A stretch of 64,000 nt of DNA from Flavobacteriales bacterium (GTDB lineage: Bacteria > Bacteroidota > Bacteroidia > CAIKAF01), in the NCBI GenBank assembly GCA_025451235.1, contig JANWKT010000007.1:124001-188000 (forward strand). Direction: 5' to 3'. A model generated the notes under the pieces. That model searched no databases and was not told the DNA's origin. It was given only the letters and a program-made list of their open reading frames with translations. Shown piece after piece: positions 49,732 through 61,067 of the stretch (position 1 is the stretch's first letter; every line of letters begins with the position of its first letter). The position numbers were made by a program, and so were the translations under genes.

Positions 49732-51873
49732 ATGTTAACGTCGCTCATTATCAATGCCCGAAAATCAGATCAAATTCATACAAATATTCTGGAATCAACG
49801 GATCAGGGAATTTATGTGGTACAACTTAGAAATGAGGAAAAGGATAAATGGAGGCTCTGTTATCTTAACCAGAACATGCGAAACATGTTTGGTATTGGTG
49901 AGCAGGAATTAGAAAAAGGTTTAAAAGGTTTGCTGAAGCTAGTACACCCGGATGATAAGAAAAAATGGATGGATACCTACCATCAATTATTCAAAAATAA
50001 AAAATCAATTCAACGATCCTATAGGCTTATACAACCCGTAACAGGAAAAATGATATATATAGATGAATCCATAAAACTGAGAGAAAAAAATGACGAAATT
50101 GAATTATATCATTATATATCCGACATATCTACGGAAAAAACCCTTACCGCCTTGCTCCAAAGCACCAACGAAGAACTTAAAAACCTAGGGCAGATCAACA
50201 AGGCCATTATTGAGAATAAAAGTCTCCATGAGATCGGTAAAATATTTTTGGATACAATTGGACCACCATTTTCCATTGTATCAAGTAGATTATACACTTT
50301 AAACCAATCCAATCATGAATTGACTACCGTTTGCGAAAATTTCGAAAAAGGCATATTCTCTAAAATTGAAAAAAGGATCGGTGTAAAAGCTGCGAGTATC
50401 ATACCCAAATTAACAGAAAGTAATTATCTTTTTCAGCTTATACAGAAGCGGGAAACCATCATAACCACCGACGAAAAGGAAATTATCAAAATTGTGGATG
50501 CACATGCAGATTCGGCCATTATAAAACCTTTTGTTAAGTGGGCTGTGAAATTGACCAAGCTAAAGACTTTTGCCATTATTCCTCTCTGCGCTGGGAATAA
50601 AATTGTTGGATTGGTTACCTTAGCCTCCACCCAAAAATTCAGCGATCAGGACATCGAATCTATTCATAGATATACAGAGCATATAGCAGGAGGATTGATA
50701 AAAAAAATATTAGAACAAGATATAAAAACCGCAGAAAAAAAACTGGCTTCCAACCAGCAATTACTACTCACCTCTGAGGAAATGGGCAAAATCGGTAGCT
50801 GGGAGGTAAATTTTGTGGATATGGAGGATTGGAGCAAAAATACCACCCTATGGTCCGACGAATCGTACCGTATTTTTGGCTATGAACCGCAAAGTGTTGA
50901 GGTAAGCTATCCCTTTTTTTTAGAACATGTTCATCCGGAAGATGTCCATTTGGTCTCAGGTAATTTTCAGGCCCTTTTTATTCCCGGCTCACAACACGAG
51001 GTTGAATACAGGATCATTTTAAAGAACGGTGATGTTAAAAATATACATGGAAAGTTCTATATCGTATTCAACGAAAAAAACAGGCCGTTAAAAATGGTTG
51101 GAATGTCTCAGGATATTACAGCGAGAAAAAAGATGGAAAAAGCATTGGAAGCCCATAACCATATATTAAAAGAAGAGGTGGAACGCCAAACGAGGGAATT
51201 GAAGATCGCTAACCAAAGCCTGGATGCATTTAATCATTCTATATCTCATGACATTAAAACTCCTCTAAGGGCCATGGACCTATATTTGGATTTGCTCAAA
51301 GAAAACATACCAGCGCAGGATGATAACCATGAGTATGTGGTCCAAATTGGAAACTGTGCTAATGAGATGAAGTTAATGATTTCAACTTTGATGGAATTGG
51401 CCAAGTTTGAAAAGATAGAACTAAAAAAAGAAACAGTCAATATGCGGTCAATGATTAATGGATGCATTCATTCGCTCATAGCTGAAACCACCAATTCAAA
51501 AGTCACTTTCAACGTTCTGCAAACTCCTGATATCAGGGCCGATGAAAACCTGGTTAAGCACATACTTGCTAACCTCATATCCAACGCCATCAAATACTCC
51601 TCGAAAAAAGAACATCCTATCATTGAAATAGCTGGATACTCGGATGGGGCTTTTACTACTTATTATATAAAAGACAATGGAGCTGGATTCGACCCAAAAC
51701 TTGCCAATAAACTCTATAAACCATTCTCCCGACTTCATAACGACAGTGAATTCGAAGGCAATGGAGCAGGATTATCCATTGCAGAACGGATCATTACCAG
51801 ACACGGAGGAACCATTTGGGCTGAAACTGAAAAGGGAAAAGGGGCCACTTTTTATTTCAAATTGCCTAACTAA
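49732..51873 (+). CDS. Soluble sensor histidine kinase, PAS-GAF-PAS-HisKA-HATPase
   Basis: 713 aa without membrane helices. PAS1 lies at about 20-135 (ILESTDQGIYVVQLRN, LVHPDDKKKWMDTYH), GAF-like domain at 165-325 (LKTFAIIPLCAGNKIVGLVT), and PAS2 with PAC at 345-465 (IGSWEVNFVD, YRIFGYEPQSVE, VHPEDVHLV). A coiled linker leads to HisKA with His506 in SHDIKTP, then the ATPase with Asn618 (NLISNAIKYS), Asp648 (DNGAGFD) and GNGAGLSIA. It should autophosphorylate in response to a cytoplasmic signal. No response regulator is adjacent. Its PAS-GAF half is paralogous to the next gene. Confidence 0.92.
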   Translation: MLTSLIINARKSDQIHTNILESTDQGIYVVQLRNEEKDKWRLCYLNQNMRNMFGIGEQELEKGLKGLLKLVHPDDKKKWMDTYHQLFKNKKSIQRSYRLIQPVTGKMIYIDESIKLREKNDEIELYHYISDISTEKTLTALLQSTNEELKNLGQINKAIIENKSLHEIGKIFLDTIGPPFSIVSSRLYTLNQSNHELTTVCENFEKGIFSKIEKRIGVKAASIIPKLTESNYLFQLIQKRETIITTDEKEIIKIVDAHADSAIIKPFVKWAVKLTKLKTFAIIPLCAGNKIVGLVTLASTQKFSDQDIESIHRYTEHIAGGLIKKILEQDIKTAEKKLASNQQLLLTSEEMGKIGSWEVNFVDMEDWSKNTTLWSDESYRIFGYEPQSVEVSYPFFLEHVHPEDVHLVSGNFQALFIPGSQHEVEYRIILKNGDVKNIHGKFYIVFNEKNRPLKMVGMSQDITARKKMEKALEAHNHILKEEVERQTRELKIANQSLDAFNHSISHDIKTPLRAMDLYLDLLKENIPAQDDNHEYVVQIGNCANEMKLMISTLMELAKFEKIELKKETVNMRSMINGCIHSLIAETTNSKVTFNVLQTPDIRADENLVKHILANLISNAIKYSSKKEHPIIEIAGYSDGAFTTYYIKDNGAGFDPKLANKLYKPFSRLHNDSEFEGNGAGLSIAERIITRHGGTIWAETEKGKGATFYFKLPN

Positions 51874-52071
51874 GTAATAGTTGTTCTGGTAATTTCGGTG
51901 TTAAACAGAATTAAAGATTAATAATAATTTAATTTCATATTGAACAAAAAATAAAGAAAAGATTAAATCATATATCTCAATAATGGCAAGGGTTATAGCT
52001 TGAGTACCTTTTCCGTTCGTCTCCGATTTAATAATAAGTTAATATTCTGGTTTCCAATTAGTAATGAAGCA

Positions 52072-52102
52072 TTTGGAATAAAAATTTTGTGGCGTACCTT
52101 TG
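52072..52102 (+). promoter_or_regulatory. Consensus promoter of the PAS-GAF gene
   Basis: TTTG at 52072-52075, exactly 19 bases, then TACCTTTG at 52095-52102. Both boxes and spacing fit the Bacteroidota primary-sigma consensus perfectly. The ATG at 52124 follows a Shine-Dalgarno-like AGAAGGAG that directly abuts the start codon. Confidence 0.75.
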
Positions 52103-52123
52103 TCATGAATTTGATAGAAGGAG

Positions 52124-53119
52124 ATGACCAACTCGGAGTTAATTTTAAGAACCTATAGAGAAATAGTAACCAAATTAGACCAACCCTATTACGTTTTAGA
52201 AGGTCTAAGCAACCATGTCGGGAATAACCAGATCCTGCATAGTAGTCCCAGCATCAGGAACATCGTTGGCTTAAGTCAGATCGAATTGGCCAGGAATTCT
52301 AAATTATTTTTCGATTCTATACATCCTGACCATCTGCAAGAATATACCGCCAGTAACCAACGTTTGTTGGAAGGAACTGCCATGGACAGGCGTACTTACC
52401 TGATAAAAAACCAGGAAACCGGAGAATTTATTCCGGTGGAAGAATTGGCTACCTCCAGGCTTAATGTCGAAAAAAATTGTTTTGAGATCTATTGCACGGT
52501 TAGAAAAGCCACTGCTCATCTGGATGCTGAAGAATCTGTTCAATTTAAAAAGTTTGCATCTGCATTAGGAAATTACTCAAATGCCAACCACGAAATAGAA
52601 AAAAGGCTTTTTGAATCTACCAGGTATTTCGTGGATACTATGGGCCAGCATTTTAAAATGAATGCAGTAAGGTTTTACGGATTCAATGAAAAAAGTAAGG
52701 AACTTTTTATACTGGCAGATATCCAGAACAAAAAATATCAAGGCCGCTTCGAAGTGGTTACTGGAGTTAAAACAAAAGGGGTGGTCCCTCAATATAGCGA
52801 GGACAGCTTCTTCTTTAATAAACTTTTGGAAAACAGGTACCAGGTATTTGATGATAAAAAGGACATCATAGAAATGCTGAAATCCCATACGGAAAATCCT
52901 CTTCTTAAGAAAATGGCTCCAACTGCCACCAAGGTATACCGACTGAAATCATTTGGATTATTACCTATTTCCTGTCCGATGGGAAGAATAGTAGGCCTCA
53001 TCACTTTTGGGTCGCCGAAGAGTTATAGTGAAGAAGGCAAAAAAGCTATTTACGAATTTACCACCACCAATACTTTTATCTTCACTCCTCTGCTCTGCGA
53101 TTTTTTTGCAGAACCCTGA
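52124..53119 (+). CDS. PAS-GAF sensory protein without output domain
   Basis: 331 aa, soluble. Residues 10-125 form a PAS domain (YYVLEGLSNHVGNNQILHSS, IHPDHLQEYTASNQRLLEG), and 145-325 a GAF-like domain (NAVRFYGFNEKSKELFIL, KSFGLLPISCPMGRIVGLIT). The GAF part aligns with the kinase encoded upstream: GVKTKGVVPQYSEDSFFFN against GVKAASIIPKLTESNYLFQ, and KSFGLLPISCPMGRIVGLIT against KTFAIIPLCAGNKIVGLVT. There is no kinase, cyclase or DNA-binding domain. It is transcribed from its own strong promoter and may modulate the kinase. Confidence 0.8.
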   Translation: MTNSELILRTYREIVTKLDQPYYVLEGLSNHVGNNQILHSSPSIRNIVGLSQIELARNSKLFFDSIHPDHLQEYTASNQRLLEGTAMDRRTYLIKNQETGEFIPVEELATSRLNVEKNCFEIYCTVRKATAHLDAEESVQFKKFASALGNYSNANHEIEKRLFESTRYFVDTMGQHFKMNAVRFYGFNEKSKELFILADIQNKKYQGRFEVVTGVKTKGVVPQYSEDSFFFNKLLENRYQVFDDKKDIIEMLKSHTENPLLKKMAPTATKVYRLKSFGLLPISCPMGRIVGLITFGSPKSYSEEGKKAIYEFTTTNTFIFTPLLCDFFAEP

Positions 53120-53203
53120 TGAAATATTTGATGCTGCGCAGTGGGGATTCTGGATTTGATATGATCCCTATGGGAACCTCAAACCTCTCAAACGCAGTCA
53201 AAC

Positions 53204-54754
53204 CTAAAAAACCGCATCTACCAATAGGTAGCAAAAAGCTGATATAAATACGGAGGAGATAATATTCAGGAAAAAACCTGCGGTAGTCATTTGATATAAT
53301 CGGATCTTCTTACTTGCATATACAATAGCATTGGGCGGTGTACCCATGGGTAACATAAATGCGCAGGTAGCTCCTAAAGTCACCGGCAAACAATAAAGCA
53401 TTGGATTTACCCCCATAGCCACGGCAATACTGCCCACCACAGGCACAAACACCGTTACAAGGGCTACATTGCTCATGAGTTCCGATAAGAAGACAGCTGC
53501 CAAAGTAAGAATGATGATCATCACCAAATGCCCACTGGATGAATAATTGTTTTTTATTTCATCTGCCACCAGTTTCATCAGGCCCGATTTATCCATGGCC
53601 ATTGCCAGGCATAATCCTCCCCCGAATAATAGTAAAATTCCCCATTTAACTTTTTTAAGGTCCTTAAATCCCATGATCATCCATGATTTTTTCGATCCGG
53701 AAGGGATAACCATCATGAGAAATGCTCCCCACATAGCTACCAGGGTATCGTCCAATTTAACCGACCATTTTTCATGGAACCATTCCCAAGTCTCGAACCT
53801 GAATATTGGCATACTGAATTTCCATTGGGTAGGTAGCCACTTGATATATTCGTCCTTGTTAATGGAATAGATAGTATTGATCAGGATGATCAACTGCTCT
53901 CTGAATATCCATAAGAGGCAAGTCTGAATGAATATAATAGCCACGATCCACTCCTGCCGGCTCATTTTACCCAGCTTATTATATTCATCCACGATCAACG
54001 ACCTCGGTATGGCCTTTTTATCCATTTTATTAGGATATAAAACATAGGTCAATAATAAATACATAATTGCCAGGATGATTACACCCATCGGAAAACAAAT
54101 GATGAACCAATCAAAAAAGCCTATGTCCATATTGAACCCTTTTTCCATCAATCCAACCAGCACCATATTCGGTGGAGTACCCACAATAGTAGTAATACCT
54201 CCTATGTTCGAAGCATAAGCGATGATGAGCATTAATACCAGGCTAAAATTCTTGATCTTCCCCTTACCCTGGTAATTGGTCTCGATCAAGGCATTTACCG
54301 AAACAGCAATGGGATACATCATCATGGTGGTAGCCGTATTACTGATCCACATGCTAATAAACGCAGTTGCTATAATAAATCCTAAAATGATCTTGTTAGG
54401 TGAGGTCCCTGTAATTTTTACAATCCCTAGGGCAATGCGTTTATGTAGGTTCCATTTCTCCAGTGCAAGTCCTAATATAAAACCGCCAAAGAAAAGAAAA
54501 ACCACTTTATCAAAATAATTGATCACCGACTGATCAAAGGTCAATACACCCGATATAGGGAAAGCAATCAATGGGATCAAAGCTACCGGTGCCAGGGGCA
54601 AAGTTTCGGTGAACCAAAGCGACAACATGAGGACCGCAATGGCCAACACAGTCTTAGAGGCTGCTGGTAATGAAAGTGGGTTTACAAAGAAGAAGAAAAC
54701 AAACAATGCAAAACCTGCCAATATGGAAACGATTACCTGCGCCGTTTTGCTCAT
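53204..54754 (-). CDS. DASS-family (SLC13) anion:sodium symporter
   Basis: 516 aa with 11-12 hydrophobic helices. The two diagnostic SNT-type hairpin motifs are present: SNTATTMMMYPIA at about 137 and SNVALVTVFVP at about 427; GTPPN occurs at about 200 and again near 485. The family imports dicarboxylates, citrate, sulfate or phosphate with sodium. It is the last gene of an operon; its ATG lies 2 bases after the preceding stop. The coupling with TMTC-like genes is unusual. Confidence 0.88.
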   Translation of the reverse strand: MSKTAQVIVSILAGFALFVFFFFVNPLSLPAASKTVLAIAVLMLSLWFTETLPLAPVALIPLIAFPISGVLTFDQSVINYFDKVVFLFFGGFILGLALEKWNLHKRIALGIVKITGTSPNKIILGFIIATAFISMWISNTATTMMMYPIAVSVNALIETNYQGKGKIKNFSLVLMLIIAYASNIGGITTIVGTPPNMVLVGLMEKGFNMDIGFFDWFIICFPMGVIILAIMYLLLTYVLYPNKMDKKAIPRSLIVDEYNKLGKMSRQEWIVAIIFIQTCLLWIFREQLIILINTIYSINKDEYIKWLPTQWKFSMPIFRFETWEWFHEKWSVKLDDTLVAMWGAFLMMVIPSGSKKSWMIMGFKDLKKVKWGILLLFGGGLCLAMAMDKSGLMKLVADEIKNNYSSSGHLVMIIILTLAAVFLSELMSNVALVTVFVPVVGSIAVAMGVNPMLYCLPVTLGATCAFMLPMGTPPNAIVYASKKIRLYQMTTAGFFLNIISSVFISAFCYLLVDAVF

Positions 54755-54756
54755 CT

Positions 54757-56811
54757 TTATTTTGCTTTCAATTGATCATCTTTTTGTTTTTGCAATACCT
54801 GGTATTGTTTATAATAACTATTTGATTTCGCTGTATCACCCAGGTTCTGGTATACCACCCCTAAATATTGATAAGCCAACGGATAGTTTTTATCACAGGC
54901 AATGGTTTGGTTACACATATCAATGGCCATGTTGAAATATTTTCTTGCCTCATCTGGTTTATTTACCTTCATATTCTCTCCGGCCAGTGTAATATAAACA
55001 GCCCCCAGGTTACATAAGGCATCCGCATAGCAAAAAGGCGACATCTCGATAGCCTTTTTAAAATTCTCCTCCGCCTCCTTATATTGGCCGGTAAAACCAT
55101 AACAGGTGCCAAAATTATTAAAGGCGATAGGATCTTTATCGTTCAATTTAAGTCTACGTTTATAATGTACAATGGCTTTTTCATAATTACCCATTCTCTG
55201 GTATATCTTTCCCAACAGACCATGCACTTCTGCAAATGGTTCGTATATCTTCAAACATTCCTGTAGTTCTTTCTCAGCCAATTCAAGCGTTACTTTTCTT
55301 TGAACATCTGTTTTTATTCTCAGAGAATCGCTATTGGTGATCATATTGGCATGGTAGTATAACATATGAACACTGTTCGGAACGGTCTTTACGTCTTCGT
55401 TGAATAAAGTGGATACATTTTTCCAGTCTTTATTCCGGTCGATCGTTTTAAAGGAGAAGAGCAGCAGTATAGGTGCCAAAACAACCCAAACAAGCGCCTT
55501 TTTCGAAAACACTTCAGCCAGGTTAGCAGGAAGGATCTTGTCAGCCTTTAATAATTTAGAGATCAGGTAAGCAATCAATATACAAAAACCCAGGGAGGGC
55601 AAGAACATGAGCCTTTCGGCCATATTGGTACCAATATAGATAAATACATTGGATATAATGGATGCCGTGATCATAAAAAAGAGGATGGCATAACTATATA
55701 CCGCTTTCTTTTTAAATCCCCTGATGGCAAAGAATAAACCAACACTGTACAGTAAAAAGGAAATCAGAAAACCACCATTTGCCGCTGATTTTACCAATGG
55801 AATGGTTTTGAAAGAATAATCACAGGAAAGTGGATGTGGAAAAATGAGGAGTTTTAAATACCTACCCATGATCTCAATGGCTGTCATTCTGCGAACTGCA
55901 TTGTCCTTAGATTCCATGATGGAATTATCCGGTATAGGAATGTCTTTGGCCTTTATTCCAACCGATCCGATCACACTGTTATGGATATATAGATAAATTC
56001 CGGTAACCGCCAGAATACAAACCGTAATGATTAAATTTTTTGATAAAGATGCTTTGGAGAAAAAATAGATGGTGATCGGTAGCAGAGCTACATAGGTAAT
56101 GGCAGATTCCTTGGTAAGCATAGCTGCAAAAAAGAAAAGAGCAGTGGGAATGATCCAATAATTTTTACCACTATCTGCATAGGATTTGGCAAACCAAAGA
56201 GAGACCAGAATAAAAAACATCGAGAGTAATTCATCTCGGCTCTTGATATTAGCCACCACCTCCGTATGTATAGGATGGAATGTAAATAACAAGGTAGCGA
56301 TCAAGGCCAGGTAATACTGGTCAGGTAAAAACCTATGTAACAATAAAAATATAAACCCACATAACAATCCATACAGAATAATATTTACCCAATGCATCAA
56401 CCTGGGTTTACCCCCTTCTTCCTTAAAATACTTTTGTCCGCCTTGCAGATCATATTCATAAGCGAACATGGCTTTTGTGAATGGACGATAAAGGTTATTT
56501 TCGGATGAATAAGAACCTTCCCTATAGCCATTTTTAAAAATAGCACCCAGAGAATCCTTTCCGGCTTCGGTCATTTTATTATCCACGATCACCGAGAAAT
56601 CATCCAGGTTAAAATCATGTTTGGCAGTGCTGGTATATAAAAGGCTTCCACAAATGGCGATCATCAAGGCAGTTACCCAAACAACAGGTCCTTTTTTAGC
56701 TTTGGCTTTGTTCGTCGAAGAAGGAGTTTTTACCTTCTCCTTTTTTTGAACAACAGGATTCTTTTTAACGGGCTGTTTGGAGTGATGAGCTGGTACCTTC
56801 TTTTTCGACAT
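54757..56811 (-). CDS. TMTC-like membrane TPR protein (paralogue 2)
   Basis: 684 aa. A Lys-rich cytoplasmic head (1-42) is followed by a multi-spanning membrane domain (about 43-470) with the GT-C-like acidic motif HDFNLDDFSVI (Asp70, Asp71) in the first loop and FHPIHTEVVANIKSRDEL, the counterpart of the HPxHTEAV segment of TMTC proteins. Residues about 490-680 hold four or five TPRs (YEKAIVHYKRRLKLNDKDPI, YKEAEENFKKAIEMSPFCYA). TMTC proteins of animals are linked to protein O-mannosylation; a glycosyltransferase role here is inference. It is a tandem duplicate of the next gene upstream. Confidence 0.85.
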   Translation of the reverse strand: MSKKKVPAHHSKQPVKKNPVVQKKEKVKTPSSTNKAKAKKGPVVWVTALMIAICGSLLYTSTAKHDFNLDDFSVIVDNKMTEAGKDSLGAIFKNGYREGSYSSENNLYRPFTKAMFAYEYDLQGGQKYFKEEGGKPRLMHWVNIILYGLLCGFIFLLLHRFLPDQYYLALIATLLFTFHPIHTEVVANIKSRDELLSMFFILVSLWFAKSYADSGKNYWIIPTALFFFAAMLTKESAITYVALLPITIYFFSKASLSKNLIITVCILAVTGIYLYIHNSVIGSVGIKAKDIPIPDNSIMESKDNAVRRMTAIEIMGRYLKLLIFPHPLSCDYSFKTIPLVKSAANGGFLISFLLYSVGLFFAIRGFKKKAVYSYAILFFMITASIISNVFIYIGTNMAERLMFLPSLGFCILIAYLISKLLKADKILPANLAEVFSKKALVWVVLAPILLLFSFKTIDRNKDWKNVSTLFNEDVKTVPNSVHMLYYHANMITNSDSLRIKTDVQRKVTLELAEKELQECLKIYEPFAEVHGLLGKIYQRMGNYEKAIVHYKRRLKLNDKDPIAFNNFGTCYGFTGQYKEAEENFKKAIEMSPFCYADALCNLGAVYITLAGENMKVNKPDEARKYFNMAIDMCNQTIACDKNYPLAYQYLGVVYQNLGDTAKSNSYYKQYQVLQKQKDDQLKAK

Positions 56812-56813
56812 GT

Positions 56814-58949
56814 TTAGTTTTTGAATTGATTGAGCCTTTCCTGTTTCTTTTGCATTAACTCGTTATATCTTTGGGTATAGGGTGCTGCCTTTGCCTGGTC
56901 TCCCAAATTAATATAGGTCATCGCCATAAATTGATTAGCGGGTATATTGTTAGGATCACAAACCAACGTTTGGTTAAACATATCAATGGCCATGCTAAAA
57001 AACTTATTGGCTTCCTGGTATTTTTGTTGGGCCCCTGCTACATTGCCTTTATCTTCTTCCATCTTCCCCTGCGACCTGGCAATATTCCCATAGGTTCCAT
57101 ACACACTACCCAAATTGGCCAAAGCATCGGCATAACAAATGGGTGTAATGTCAATGGCCTTTTTAAAGTTCACCTCTGCAGAATCGTACCGCCCCACCGC
57201 AAAATAACAGGTAGCATAATTATTAAAAGTGGTAGGGTCCTTGGCATTCAATTCAAGGGTCCGCTTATAATGTTTAATGGCCAAGTTATAGAGCTCCCCA
57301 GCCTGAACACCTTTTCTTCTGGCAGCATAATACTCCCCCATTTCTTTATATACCCTACCCAATAAACTATGACCGTTCGGGAAAGGTTCCCATAAGCTAT
57401 CAGCTTTTAATAATTCTTTTTCAGCCAATCTTAAGGTGATTATTTTTTGAGTGGAATCCTTCAATGCCAAAGAATCGGTATTGGTGATCATCCCTGCATG
57501 GTACAAAAGCATGTGCACACTGTTCGGAACTGTTTTTATATCTGCATTAAATAAGGTGGACACATTTTTCCAGTCCTGGTTACGGTCAATTGTTTTAACA
57601 GTGCCAATGATCAGCAGTGGAACTAAGATTAACCATAGAAGCGCCTTTTGGGTAAAAACGTCCTGAATGAGTTGAGGAGTGGTTTTCTCTAGCTTCAGTA
57701 ATTTTATAATAAAGAAGGCGATCAGCAAACAAAAACCAAGCGATGGAATAAAGACCAAACGTTCGGCCATATTCGTACCAATATAAATAAACAGGTTGCT
57801 AACTATTGATATGGTGATAAAATAAAAGAAAATGGCAAAGCTGGCAATGGATCTTTTTCTAAATCCCATAATGGCATATACCAGCAAACCGATATGTATC
57901 AAAAATGCAGCAATGAATCCGGGATTTGCGGCACTCTTTACCAAGGGAATGGTAGCAAATGAATAATCAGATGACAGAGGATGCGGGATGAACATTAATT
58001 TCAAATACCTACCCAATATTTCGATAGCGGTCATTTTTCTTACACCAAAATCCTTCGACTCCATGATCGAATTATCCGGAACAGGGATCAATTCCGTCAC
58101 CAATCCAATGGAGCCAATAACACTTCGATGTATGAGTAGATAAATTCCTGTAACGGCCAACATAAAAACGCTAACTGTAAGGATCTTTGGCCATTTGGCC
58201 GATGTTAAGAAGTACATCGTTATAGGAGCCAATGCCACATAAGTAATGGTCGATTCCTTCGCAAACAAAGCGAAGAAATAAATAAATATGGCCAGTATTA
58301 GATCCACGATCTTATTCTTGTCTACATAAGATTTTACGAACCACAACGAACCCAATAATAAGAACAAAGCAACAATCTCATCCCTGCTTTTAATATTGGC
58401 CACCACCTCCGTATGTATGGGATGAAAAGTAAAAAGTAAAGTGGTCACCAATGCCAAATAATACTGTCCTGGAATGAACCTGCGTAAGGTGAGGAAAATA
58501 AATCCGCAAAGCAATCCATACAAGATCACATTGATAAAATGCATCAGAAAGGGTTTCCCTCCACTCTGCTGGTAATAAGGTTTACCGCCCGAAAGATCAT
58601 ACTCAACGGTAAACATGGCTTTGGTAAGCGGACGGTATAAATTATCCTCCACTGTAAAATTTCCTTGCCTGTATCCTGTTTTAAAAACGGTGGATATGGT
58701 ATCCATCCCACCCGTGGTAATGGTATTTTCTGCGATCACCGAAAAATCATCCAGTACAAAATCGTGGTTCACTGTATTACTATACAGGAACATTCCGCAA
58801 ACAGCAATAAAAATAAAGGTAAATAAATGGAGATTGTTTTTTTTACCGGTTTTCGGTTGATGTTTAGGGGGTGTTGTATTTCCTCCCTTCTTGGCAGGTG
58901 TTTTTTTTACAGGTGGTGAGGTATTTTTTTTATAATTCTTATGAGCCAT
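56814..58949 (-). CDS. TMTC-like membrane TPR protein (paralogue 1)
   Basis: 711 aa, the first gene of the operon. The layout is the same as in its neighbour: basic head (1-38), membrane domain with NHDFVLDDFSVI (Asp67, Asp68), FHPIHTEVVANIKSRDEI, and YRPLTKAMFTVEYDLSGGK, then TPRs from about 500 to 700 (YNLAIKHYKRTLELNAKDPT, YDSAEVNFKKAIDITPICYA). It has an extra insertion in the TPR part compared with paralogue 2. Only 2 bases separate it from the next gene, so the two are translated together. The acceptor and donor are unknown. Confidence 0.85.
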   Translation of the reverse strand: MAHKNYKKNTSPPVKKTPAKKGGNTTPPKHQPKTGKKNNLHLFTFIFIAVCGMFLYSNTVNHDFVLDDFSVIAENTITTGGMDTISTVFKTGYRQGNFTVEDNLYRPLTKAMFTVEYDLSGGKPYYQQSGGKPFLMHFINVILYGLLCGFIFLTLRRFIPGQYYLALVTTLLFTFHPIHTEVVANIKSRDEIVALFLLLGSLWFVKSYVDKNKIVDLILAIFIYFFALFAKESTITYVALAPITMYFLTSAKWPKILTVSVFMLAVTGIYLLIHRSVIGSIGLVTELIPVPDNSIMESKDFGVRKMTAIEILGRYLKLMFIPHPLSSDYSFATIPLVKSAANPGFIAAFLIHIGLLVYAIMGFRKRSIASFAIFFYFITISIVSNLFIYIGTNMAERLVFIPSLGFCLLIAFFIIKLLKLEKTTPQLIQDVFTQKALLWLILVPLLIIGTVKTIDRNQDWKNVSTLFNADIKTVPNSVHMLLYHAGMITNTDSLALKDSTQKIITLRLAEKELLKADSLWEPFPNGHSLLGRVYKEMGEYYAARRKGVQAGELYNLAIKHYKRTLELNAKDPTTFNNYATCYFAVGRYDSAEVNFKKAIDITPICYADALANLGSVYGTYGNIARSQGKMEEDKGNVAGAQQKYQEANKFFSMAIDMFNQTLVCDPNNIPANQFMAMTYINLGDQAKAAPYTQRYNELMQKKQERLNQFKN

Positions 58950-59016
58950 ACGCTGCTTCTCCAGCTATAAAAATATTCATTTTTTTTATAATGAGAATAA
59001 TATTTCTCCGGGCGCC

Positions 59017-59080
59017 CCGGTAAATGGTGAAAAACCATTTACCGGCCCTATGCTCTGGGCTTCCCCGGCCTGCGCCGGGG
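59017..59080. repeat. GC-rich intergenic island with two perfect hairpins
   Basis: The first hairpin is CCGGTAAATGGT (59017-59028), loop GAAAA, ACCATTTACCGG (59034-59045), a perfect 12-bp stem. The second is CCCCGGC (59063-59069), loop CTGC, GCCGGGG (59074-59080), a perfect 7-bp stem. A further GCTGCG...CGCAGC pair lies just downstream. The block stands out from the AT-rich surroundings and sits between divergent genes. It looks like a REP/BIME-type element. Confidence 0.7.
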
Positions 59081-59189
59081 TACGGTGCTGCGTTCCACTC
59101 CGCACTTCCCCTTCGCAGCGGTGGCGCTCCATGAATGAAATTCCATACCATAAGTCTATTTAATTATATTTGTCATTCACATCTAACGT

Positions 59190-61067
59190 ATGAAAAACTT
59201 AACCTTCATCCTTACACTGGGTATTGCTTTGTCCGGAACGATCATGGCCCAAACTTCTTTATACATGCCGCTTGAATTTCAGAATGCCTATAAGAATGGT
59301 ACCCGTGAATATGATGGATCGGTTTCTCCTATTTATTGGCAGAACCATTCGGATTATAAAATAAAAGCGAAGATAGATCCTAGGAAAAAAATACTCAGCG
59401 CCTCTGCCGATATCACCTTCTATAATGAATCTCCTGACTCATTGTTTGAACTCCTGTTCCTTACCTATCCTGATTATTATAAAAGGGGGGCTGTAAAGGC
59501 CGGTTTCTTTGGCGGTACTTATGACCCAAGTCTGGAATCAAAAGGAATGATCATCGAAAAACTAACGGTTGCCGGAGTAGACATCAATTTAAAGAATGAA
59601 AACATGGCCGAGTATAATGGCACCAGCTATTGGGTATACCCTTCCACTCCAATAGCTCCACAAACAAGTGTTAGCATCCAGGTAAAATGGTATTATACAA
59701 TTCCAGGTAAAGGATTTGAACGGAGTGGTGCAATTGATCCAACTTCTATGTTCATTGCATATTGGTATCCTGAAATAGCGGTACGAGATGATATCAATTA
59801 TTGGGACGAAATTTTATACGATGCCAGTGCAGAATTTTACCACGACAATTCTAATTATGAAGTTGAAGTTGAAGTACCGAAAAATTACCTGGTATGGGCA
59901 TCCGTAGCTCCTTCGAATCCAACGGAGATCTATCCTGATTATATTATTCAAAACCTGGAAAAAGCTAAAACGAGCACTGTTGCTTTACCCATTGTATCAG
60001 AAGGAGATATTAAGAAAGGTCTTAAAATGAAATCAGGAAAATGGAAATTCTCTGCCAAAAATTTCCCTGACTTTGCTTTTGCTTTAAGTGATCATTTTGT
60101 ATGGGATGCGGCCTCCTATACCGATAGCTATGGCTATTATTTTTTAAATACCGCTTACGATCCCAAACATACCCCTTTTAAAGAGGTATTAAAAACCGAA
60201 CAGGAAGCCATTCAACTATTCCATACTGAATTTCCCCGATATGAATTCCCTTACCATCACTTTACCATCTTCAATGGGTTAGAAGGGGGTGGAATGGAAT
60301 TCCCGGGTATGGCCAACAACCAATCCGTCTCAGGTGCTGATATGGAGCGTTGGACCGGAAAAAAGATGAATGATTTTGATGCGAACTTCGGTTTAAGTCT
60401 GCATGAAATGTGCCATATGTATTTCCCCTTCCTCATGGGCATTAACGAAAAAAAATATGCCTGGATGGATGAAGGATGGGCCAGTTTCTCAGAATATTTT
60501 ATCGATGGAGAATCCATGAGTCAATATCCTGTGGCATATCTGGGTGACCAAAGCATCAGTCCCATGATGACCCCTACCTATACGCAGCCCATGGTCTCCT
60601 CCATCAATTCATATGATATGGGATCCTTTTCTTATTATTCATTGTACCATTTATTGGGAAAAGATCTTTTTAGCAAATGTCTCAAAACTTATATAGATCG
60701 TTGGAACCATAAACATCCTACCCCTTATGATTTTTTCTTCACCTTCAATGATGCATCTGGCCAAAATCTTGACTGGTTCTGGAAAAACTGGTATTTCGAT
60801 TGGGGATATCCGGATGTTGGTATTGTAGAATTTAAAAATGGACAACTTACTCTTGAGAACCTGGGAGGGAAGGCTATTGCATTTACTATTATTGTGGGTT
60901 ATAACGATGATACCGTTTCCCAGGAAACCATTAGTCCAGCTGTATGGAAATCATCCAATATATATACCCATACCCTCAAAAATCCAGAGGCTATCCAATC
61001 CATTTGGTTGAATACCATGACCGGATGCGATGCGGTGATTGAAAATAGCTATTGGAAGAGAAAATAG
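59190..61067 (+). CDS. Secreted M1-family zinc metallopeptidase
   Basis: 625 aa with signal peptide at about 1-20 (LTLGIALSGTIMAQ). The exopeptidase-type loop GGGMEFPGM and the zinc site HEMCH (His405, Glu406, His409) followed by 18 residues and Glu428 in DEGWASFSEYF are all present, so it should be an active aminopeptidase. An N-terminal beta domain and a C-terminal domain flank the catalytic part. TATATTTG at 59165-59172 fits the -7 motif, with a poor -33. It probably acts in the periplasm or outside the cell on peptides. Confidence 0.93.
   Translation: MKNLTFILTLGIALSGTIMAQTSLYMPLEFQNAYKNGTREYDGSVSPIYWQNHSDYKIKAKIDPRKKILSASADITFYNESPDSLFELLFLTYPDYYKRGAVKAGFFGGTYDPSLESKGMIIEKLTVAGVDINLKNENMAEYNGTSYWVYPSTPIAPQTSVSIQVKWYYTIPGKGFERSGAIDPTSMFIAYWYPEIAVRDDINYWDEILYDASAEFYHDNSNYEVEVEVPKNYLVWASVAPSNPTEIYPDYIIQNLEKAKTSTVALPIVSEGDIKKGLKMKSGKWKFSAKNFPDFAFALSDHFVWDAASYTDSYGYYFLNTAYDPKHTPFKEVLKTEQEAIQLFHTEFPRYEFPYHHFTIFNGLEGGGMEFPGMANNQSVSGADMERWTGKKMNDFDANFGLSLHEMCHMYFPFLMGINEKKYAWMDEGWASFSEYFIDGESMSQYPVAYLGDQSISPMMTPTYTQPMVSSINSYDMGSFSYYSLYHLLGKDLFSKCLKTYIDRWNHKHPTPYDFFFTFNDASGQNLDWFWKNWYFDWGYPDVGIVEFKNGQLTLENLGGKAIAFTIIVGYNDDTVSQETISPAVWKSSNIYTHTLKNPEAIQSIWLNTMTGCDAVIENSYWKRK

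Follow-up and report, generated by a model that had tools for sequence, protein, structure and literature searches.

Among the systems described so far, those that come closest to the proteins considered here include animal TMTC1-4, which CAZy classifies as GT105, and the PMT proteins of GT39, which include Pmt4 and the Pmt1-Pmt2 pair. We compared them with a tandem pair of TMTC-like genes, encoding proteins A and B, from a Flavobacteriales bacterium (assembly GCA_025451235.1, contig JANWKT010000007.1, forward-strand positions 124,001 to 188,000; this whole 64,000-nucleotide stretch is referred to as the window, and positions are counted from its first letter). Computational analysis revealed a family match, a GT-C fold with 11 transmembrane helices (TMs), conserved active-site residues and a TPR domain in both proteins, which arose by one duplication before the split of two species. 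A and B genuinely belong to a known family, of which prokaryotic members have been noted in the literature before, and we hold it reasonably probable that they are catalytically intact bacterial TMTC members, predicted to transfer a hexose to exported proteins in a role accessory to a TMEM260-like enzyme.

According to the available part of PMC7801869, human TMTCs combine 11 TMs with a luminal TPR domain, and the residues thought to be functional are DD and SHKSYRP in loop EL1, an Asp in EL2, a Lys in EL3, DW in EL4 and an Arg in EL5; prokaryotic TMTC homologues are already mentioned there. A and B share with animal TMTC1-4 the DUF1736 loop, the EL1 DD, YRP, the EL2 Asp, the EL3 Lys, the EL5 Arg, the 11-TM plan and C-terminal TPRs on the outer or luminal side, with equivalence to TMTC1 residues set by motif and loop. 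The literature listings that were searched showed no experimental work on a TMTC from bacteria.

The list of open reading frames (ORFs) places B, A and a DASS symporter in one minus-strand run at 53204-58949 (Table 1). The sequence-only reading had described two duplicated proteins with DDF and FHPIHTEVV motifs and C-terminal TPRs, joined by 2-base gaps to each other and to a sodium/anion symporter, and each of these statements holds. Over 700 alignment columns, A and B share 56% identity, both motifs occur in both proteins, and each protein matches several Pfam TPR families. The letters of the DNA at the two junctions of the run read TAA-AC-ATG and TAA-AG-ATG. The symporter matched Na_sulph_symp (PF00939) with an E of 2.3e-75 and TIGR00785 (dass) with an E of 5.9e-90, over the cut-off of the latter.

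Both A and B exceeded the curated Pfam cut-off of 27 bits for TMTC_DUF1736 (PF08409; scores in Table 1). A contig scan with protein B as the single query returned no relative, and its repetition with an alignment (A1) returned 80 loci. Because these loci were picked through the pattern EVVAN[IV]KS, the selection itself accounts for the conservation of that stretch; the remaining scored residues lie outside it. Residue conservation was assessed in an alignment of 70 proteins, comprising 67 of the 76 full-length ORFs from the 80 loci, the second copy of a sister species, and A and B. The sequence-only reading had counted on conservation of the paired Asp residues in relatives, and both Asp of the EL1 DD were present in every row that was readable there (69 of 69). 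YRP, the EL2 Asp (D189), the EL3 Lys (K230), the EL5 Arg (R396; these three numbered without Met) and the EL4 Asp were invariant in 70/70, the second EL4 position being Y in 52 proteins and W in 1. An 18-protein alignment of ORFs obtained via a looser motif filter showed the same residues to be invariant and the EL4 Asp near-invariant. At E<=0.01, TMTC_DUF1736 matched 53 of the 70 members, PMT_2 matched 30 and TPR matched all 70. Taken with the predicted fold described below, the Pfam matches and residue conservation make the assignment of A and B to TMTC-family GT-C glycosyltransferases well supported, in line with the GT-C plus TPR architecture first proposed for them.

The predicted models reached a pLDDT of 93.3 and a pTM of 0.90 for B (70 sequences) and a pLDDT of 91.2 and a pTM of 0.87 for A (41 sequences). 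VIA-align superimposed residues ~32-490 of B on yeast STT3 (8agb; Z 19.1, root-mean-square deviation [rmsd] 4.8, 338 aligned) and also matched B to archaeal AglB (3waj; Z 19.0, rmsd 4.4, 332 aligned), Pmt4 (9i5l; Z 17.8, rmsd 4.2, 348 aligned), Pmt1-Pmt2 (6p25; Z 17.5, rmsd 4.5, 349 aligned), ALG12 (9s6t; Z 17.5, rmsd 5.3, 332 aligned) and PglB (3rce; Z 16.6, rmsd 4.5, 316 aligned). A gave the same picture (8age, Z 18.9; 9i5l, Z 18.9). Overall, the GT-C matches of A and B had Z values of 16-19 over 314-359 residues covering the membrane domain, which exceeds the VIA-align warning level for helical models (Z 13-14). Judged by this match, the comparison with PMT and PglB folds envisaged in the sequence-only reading points to a GT-C fold in the models, and the outcome that would have spoken against the reading did not occur. 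PMT proteins share this fold with A and B at Z 16-19, but A and B carry C-terminal TPRs and have no MIR domain among their Pfam matches. PglB, AglB and STT3 resemble B over the same range of Z, whereas identity is ~10%, the C-terminal part of A and B is TPR, with a structural match to the TPRs of MamA and OGT, and no STT3 family is among the Pfam matches.

The GT-C match rests on VIA-align because the best 50 Foldseek matches were TPR or other helical-repeat proteins only. The best 60 matches of the family sequence profile against the PDB covered only the TPR part, and no ArnT or TMTC chain was among the 50 structural matches listed, an absence that excludes nothing. A hand count from model helices and hydropathy was compatible with 11 TMs in the helix plan. 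The N-terminal tail before TM1 contains 11 K/R and zero D/E, which would place the N-terminus inside and the C-terminus in the periplasm.

Relatives of the pair were detected with protein B as query (E<=1e-10) in 35 of 60 related genomes, the source genome included, and in 20 of the 296 genomes of a Bacteroidota sample (at most 3 candidates scored per genome). With a profile of the membrane domain, the related genomes with a match at E<=1e-15 numbered 37/60; several had 10 to 16 matches, 16 being the highest count. This profile also matched 40/296 Bacteroidota genomes (at most 5 candidates scored per genome), 15 of these at E<=1e-60. Within the source genome's own taxonomic family, 7 of 16 genomes had a match, and the source genome itself contains two further TMTC-like paralogues. 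The TMTC-type family in Bacteroidota is patchy and probably accessory.

In a 79-row tree, A, B and the two copies of the sister species formed one clade (100/100), within which B grouped with its sister counterpart (98/94) and the A pair was not resolved. This four-copy clade of two species indicates one duplication before their split. The neighbouring sister clade (12 rows) includes single-copy loci. Same-strand tandem pairs were also found at loci L070, L071, L073, L074 and L075, and another Bacteroidota genome carries a same-strand run of four TMTC-like genes (L068, G059:C71, 2924-10628). TMTC-like genes whose contigs bear the labels Competibacteraceae and Thermoanaerobaculia (L113 and L163) were nested in Bacteroidota clades of the tree, a placement that reflects either horizontal transfer or errors in the binning of these contigs.

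The sister species, a member of the same genus represented by a Flavobacteriales metagenome-assembled genome (JANWKQ010000144.1), keeps the order B-A-DASS; the counterparts of gldM and of the PAS-like gene at 52124-53119 in the window stay beside the run there. A DASS homologue flanked 1 of the 80 contig-scan loci, which is that of the sister species; in one region (L069) of the 20 fetched, a further DASS gene, 35% identical, lies divergent from a TMTC-like gene. The order TMTC-TMTC-DASS is therefore kept in the sister species only, and the functional tie to the symporter implied by the sequence-only reading finds no support beyond the genus; at genus level, the link is weak evidence for joint function. 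Matches to the Bacteroidota promoter pattern in the window (three, none of them upstream of B) were no more than expected by chance, and sigma-70 and terminator scans were likewise at chance level, so the case for an operon comes down to the short gaps and the gene order of the sister species. Co-transcription of the DASS gene with the pair is probable, but its product would stand outside the glycosylation chemistry. A search for conserved partners across the 80 loci, with clusters judged by first residues and not by profile, revealed no glycan gene. The largest neighbour cluster, at L097 and seven similar loci (8/80), is a same-strand gene immediately upstream, judged by eye from its first residues to be acyl-CoA-synthetase-like.

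Several results weigh against a TMTC-like role of A and B. With identities of 8-12%, the structural matches would suit any GT-C enzyme, N-oligosaccharyltransferases and ALG12 among them. The H/K of the TMTC motif SHKSYRP, proposed to contact the donor phosphate and conserved in animal TMTCs, show no conservation in the 70-protein alignment (H or K in 3/70 and 1/70 at the two columns) and are missing before YRP in both A and B; they are not known to be a requirement for family membership. These bacterial proteins, known from sequence, further differ from animal TMTC1-4 in that EL4 in the alignment is mostly DY instead of DW. Cadherin domains, the acceptor class of animal TMTCs, were not found in the source genome at E<=0.001, and among the relatives 4 of 60 genomes had cadherin matches. 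The two further paralogues of the source genome fall below the PF08409 cut-off, and gene neighbours are not conserved, the commonest occurring at 8/80 loci.

For the general O-glycosylation of Bacteroidota, the available part of a 2025 review (PMC12871550) describes glycans with a common mannose-containing core, calls the oligosaccharyltransferase (OTase) undiscovered and suggests a search for homologues of eukaryotic O-mannosylation. On that account, the transfer enzyme of this general system is not known to belong to other families, contrary to the earlier statement on its enzymes. Animal TMEM260 is an O-mannosyltransferase of GT117, according to the accessible portion of PMC11292533. TMEM260-like proteins (PF11028) are, like TMTCs, a GT-C O-mannosyltransferase family in animals, and the two copies in the source genome match the solved TMEM260 (9rql) with E values of 3.5e-12 and 9.1e-17. 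They nevertheless form a separate family, which is over its cut-off in 295/296 Bacteroidota genomes compared with 40/296 for the TMTC type, and among 14 control genomes PF11028 was found in Bacteroides ihuae only. A D-x-G-E pattern follows the first hydrophobic segment at 4 of 6 TMEM260-like loci, L087 and L089 having no match. By the contrast in distribution, TMEM260-like genes are a directly testable candidate for the undiscovered OTase and a stronger lead than the TMTC pair, although distribution alone proves no function. Among the papers listed on TMEM260 and bacteria, no title or abstract opening made a link to the Bacteroidota OTase, and for DUF2723 no paper was listed.

Protein O-mannosylation is the likely activity predicted for A and B. 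Both proteins would lie in the inner membrane and expose their catalytic loops and TPR domain to the periplasm. The predicted reaction moves mannose, or another hexose, from a polyprenyl-phosphate donor to Ser/Thr of exported proteins, which the TPR domain may hold or help to present. A and B would probably differ in their acceptors or act side by side, accessory to the separate, phylum-wide TMEM260-like enzyme. Donor supply is plausible because one GT2 protein of the source genome proved related to dolichol-P-mannose synthase in the PDB comparison (5mlz, E 3.7e-31); NCBIfam gave no curated polyprenol-P-mannose synthase call among nine GT2 proteins (9 of 25 GT2 places). We tentatively propose, as a possible but doubtful extension, a division of labour in which the TMEM260-like enzyme starts the general O-glycan and tandem, lineage-expanded TMTC-like TPR enzymes mannosylate special exported proteins, the pair in the window being one such system. 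If active, proteins of the A/B type would allow a human enzyme family linked to disease to be modelled simply in bacteria.

Acceptors other than proteins have to be weighed against this. The pair could be GT-C sugar transferases that act on a lipid or polysaccharide, either ArnT-like on lipid A or adding a side-branch to O-antigen or capsule, with the TPRs serving to dock the enzymes onto an assembly complex. The available part of PMC7801869 names ArnT as the nearest homologue of animal TMTCs with a solved structure, GT-C folds take many acceptors and motif analysis leaves the acceptor unfixed; the 10 to 16 profile matches in several genomes are also as expected for variable surface glycans. 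However, the specific TMTC_DUF1736 match combined with TPR in 70/70 proteins is the architecture of animal TMTCs, and the listed neighbour clusters, judged by first residues and not by profile, include no recurring polysaccharide or lipopolysaccharide genes, so that we consider such a role rather unlikely.

That the pair might itself be the missing OTase of general O-glycosylation, with a glycan starting with mannose, is suggested by the mannose in the common core and the undiscovered state of the enzyme (available part of PMC12871550) together with the O-mannosyltransferase activity of animal TMTCs (accessible portion of PMC11292533). The family is too patchy for this: the TMTC-type profile and protein query found it in 40/296 and 20/296 Bacteroidota genomes and in fewer than half of those of its own taxonomic family, far from phylum-wide presence and in contrast to the TMEM260-like genes. 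We therefore rejected the pair as the general OTase, a role that now appears very improbable. An obligate A-B heterodimer resembling Pmt1-Pmt2, possibly together with the DASS carrier, would account for the recurrence of same-strand tandem copies in other genomes and for the retention of both copies in the sister species. Active sites are nevertheless complete in both proteins, so neither copy needs the other for catalysis, and with single-copy loci in the sister clade and DASS missing from nearly all other loci, an obligate partnership seems improbable. Catalytically intact TMTC-type enzymes acting on exported proteins remain the reading we prefer.

Table 1. Features of the TMTC-like locus and TMEM260-like genes of the source genome (window positions unless a contig handle is given; residues of B and A counted with Met = 1)
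Feature	Position	Strand	Evidence or remark
TMTC-like protein B, 711 aa, N-terminal 11-TM GT-C and C-terminal TPR domain; first gene of the run	56814..58949	-	ORF; PF08409 30.0 bits; TPR families
TMTC-like protein A, 684 aa, B-type architecture, paralogue of B	54757..56811	-	ORF; PF08409 32.7 bits
DASS-family sodium/anion symporter, 516 aa, 2 bases downstream of A	53204..54754	-	PF00939, TIGR00785
DD motif of B, D67 D68, predicted catalytic/metal site, loop EL1	58746..58751	-	equals TMTC1 D52/D53 by motif (PMC7801869, available part)
DD motif of A, D70 D71	56599..56604	-	alignment positions 69-70 without Met
HPIHTEVVANIKSRD of B, loop EL2; D190 ~ TMTC1 D169	58380..58424	-	H, P, H, E, K, D invariant in 70/70; the EVVAN[IV]KS part served to pick the loci and is conserved by that choice
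K231 of B, loop EL3, ~ TMTC1 K219	58257..58259	-	K in 70/70
R397 of B, loop EL5 'AER', predicted donor lipid-phosphate contact	57759..57761	-	R in 70/70; equals TMTC1 R404 by motif (PMC7801869, available part)
TMEM260-like (PF11028) gene, L085	G000:C1:245770-246315		
TMEM260-like (PF11028) gene, L086	G000:C1:254596-255156		

An Rfam search of 52000-60000 gave no match. That region includes a GC-rich intergenic element with a palindromic stretch (58985-59135), situated between a divergent M1-peptidase gene and B, which has no Rfam match and has partial matches at two other sites of the genome. Beyond the symporter, 49732-51873 encodes a PAS/histidine-kinase protein, and the adjoining 52124-53119 encodes a PAS-like protein without a kinase domain.

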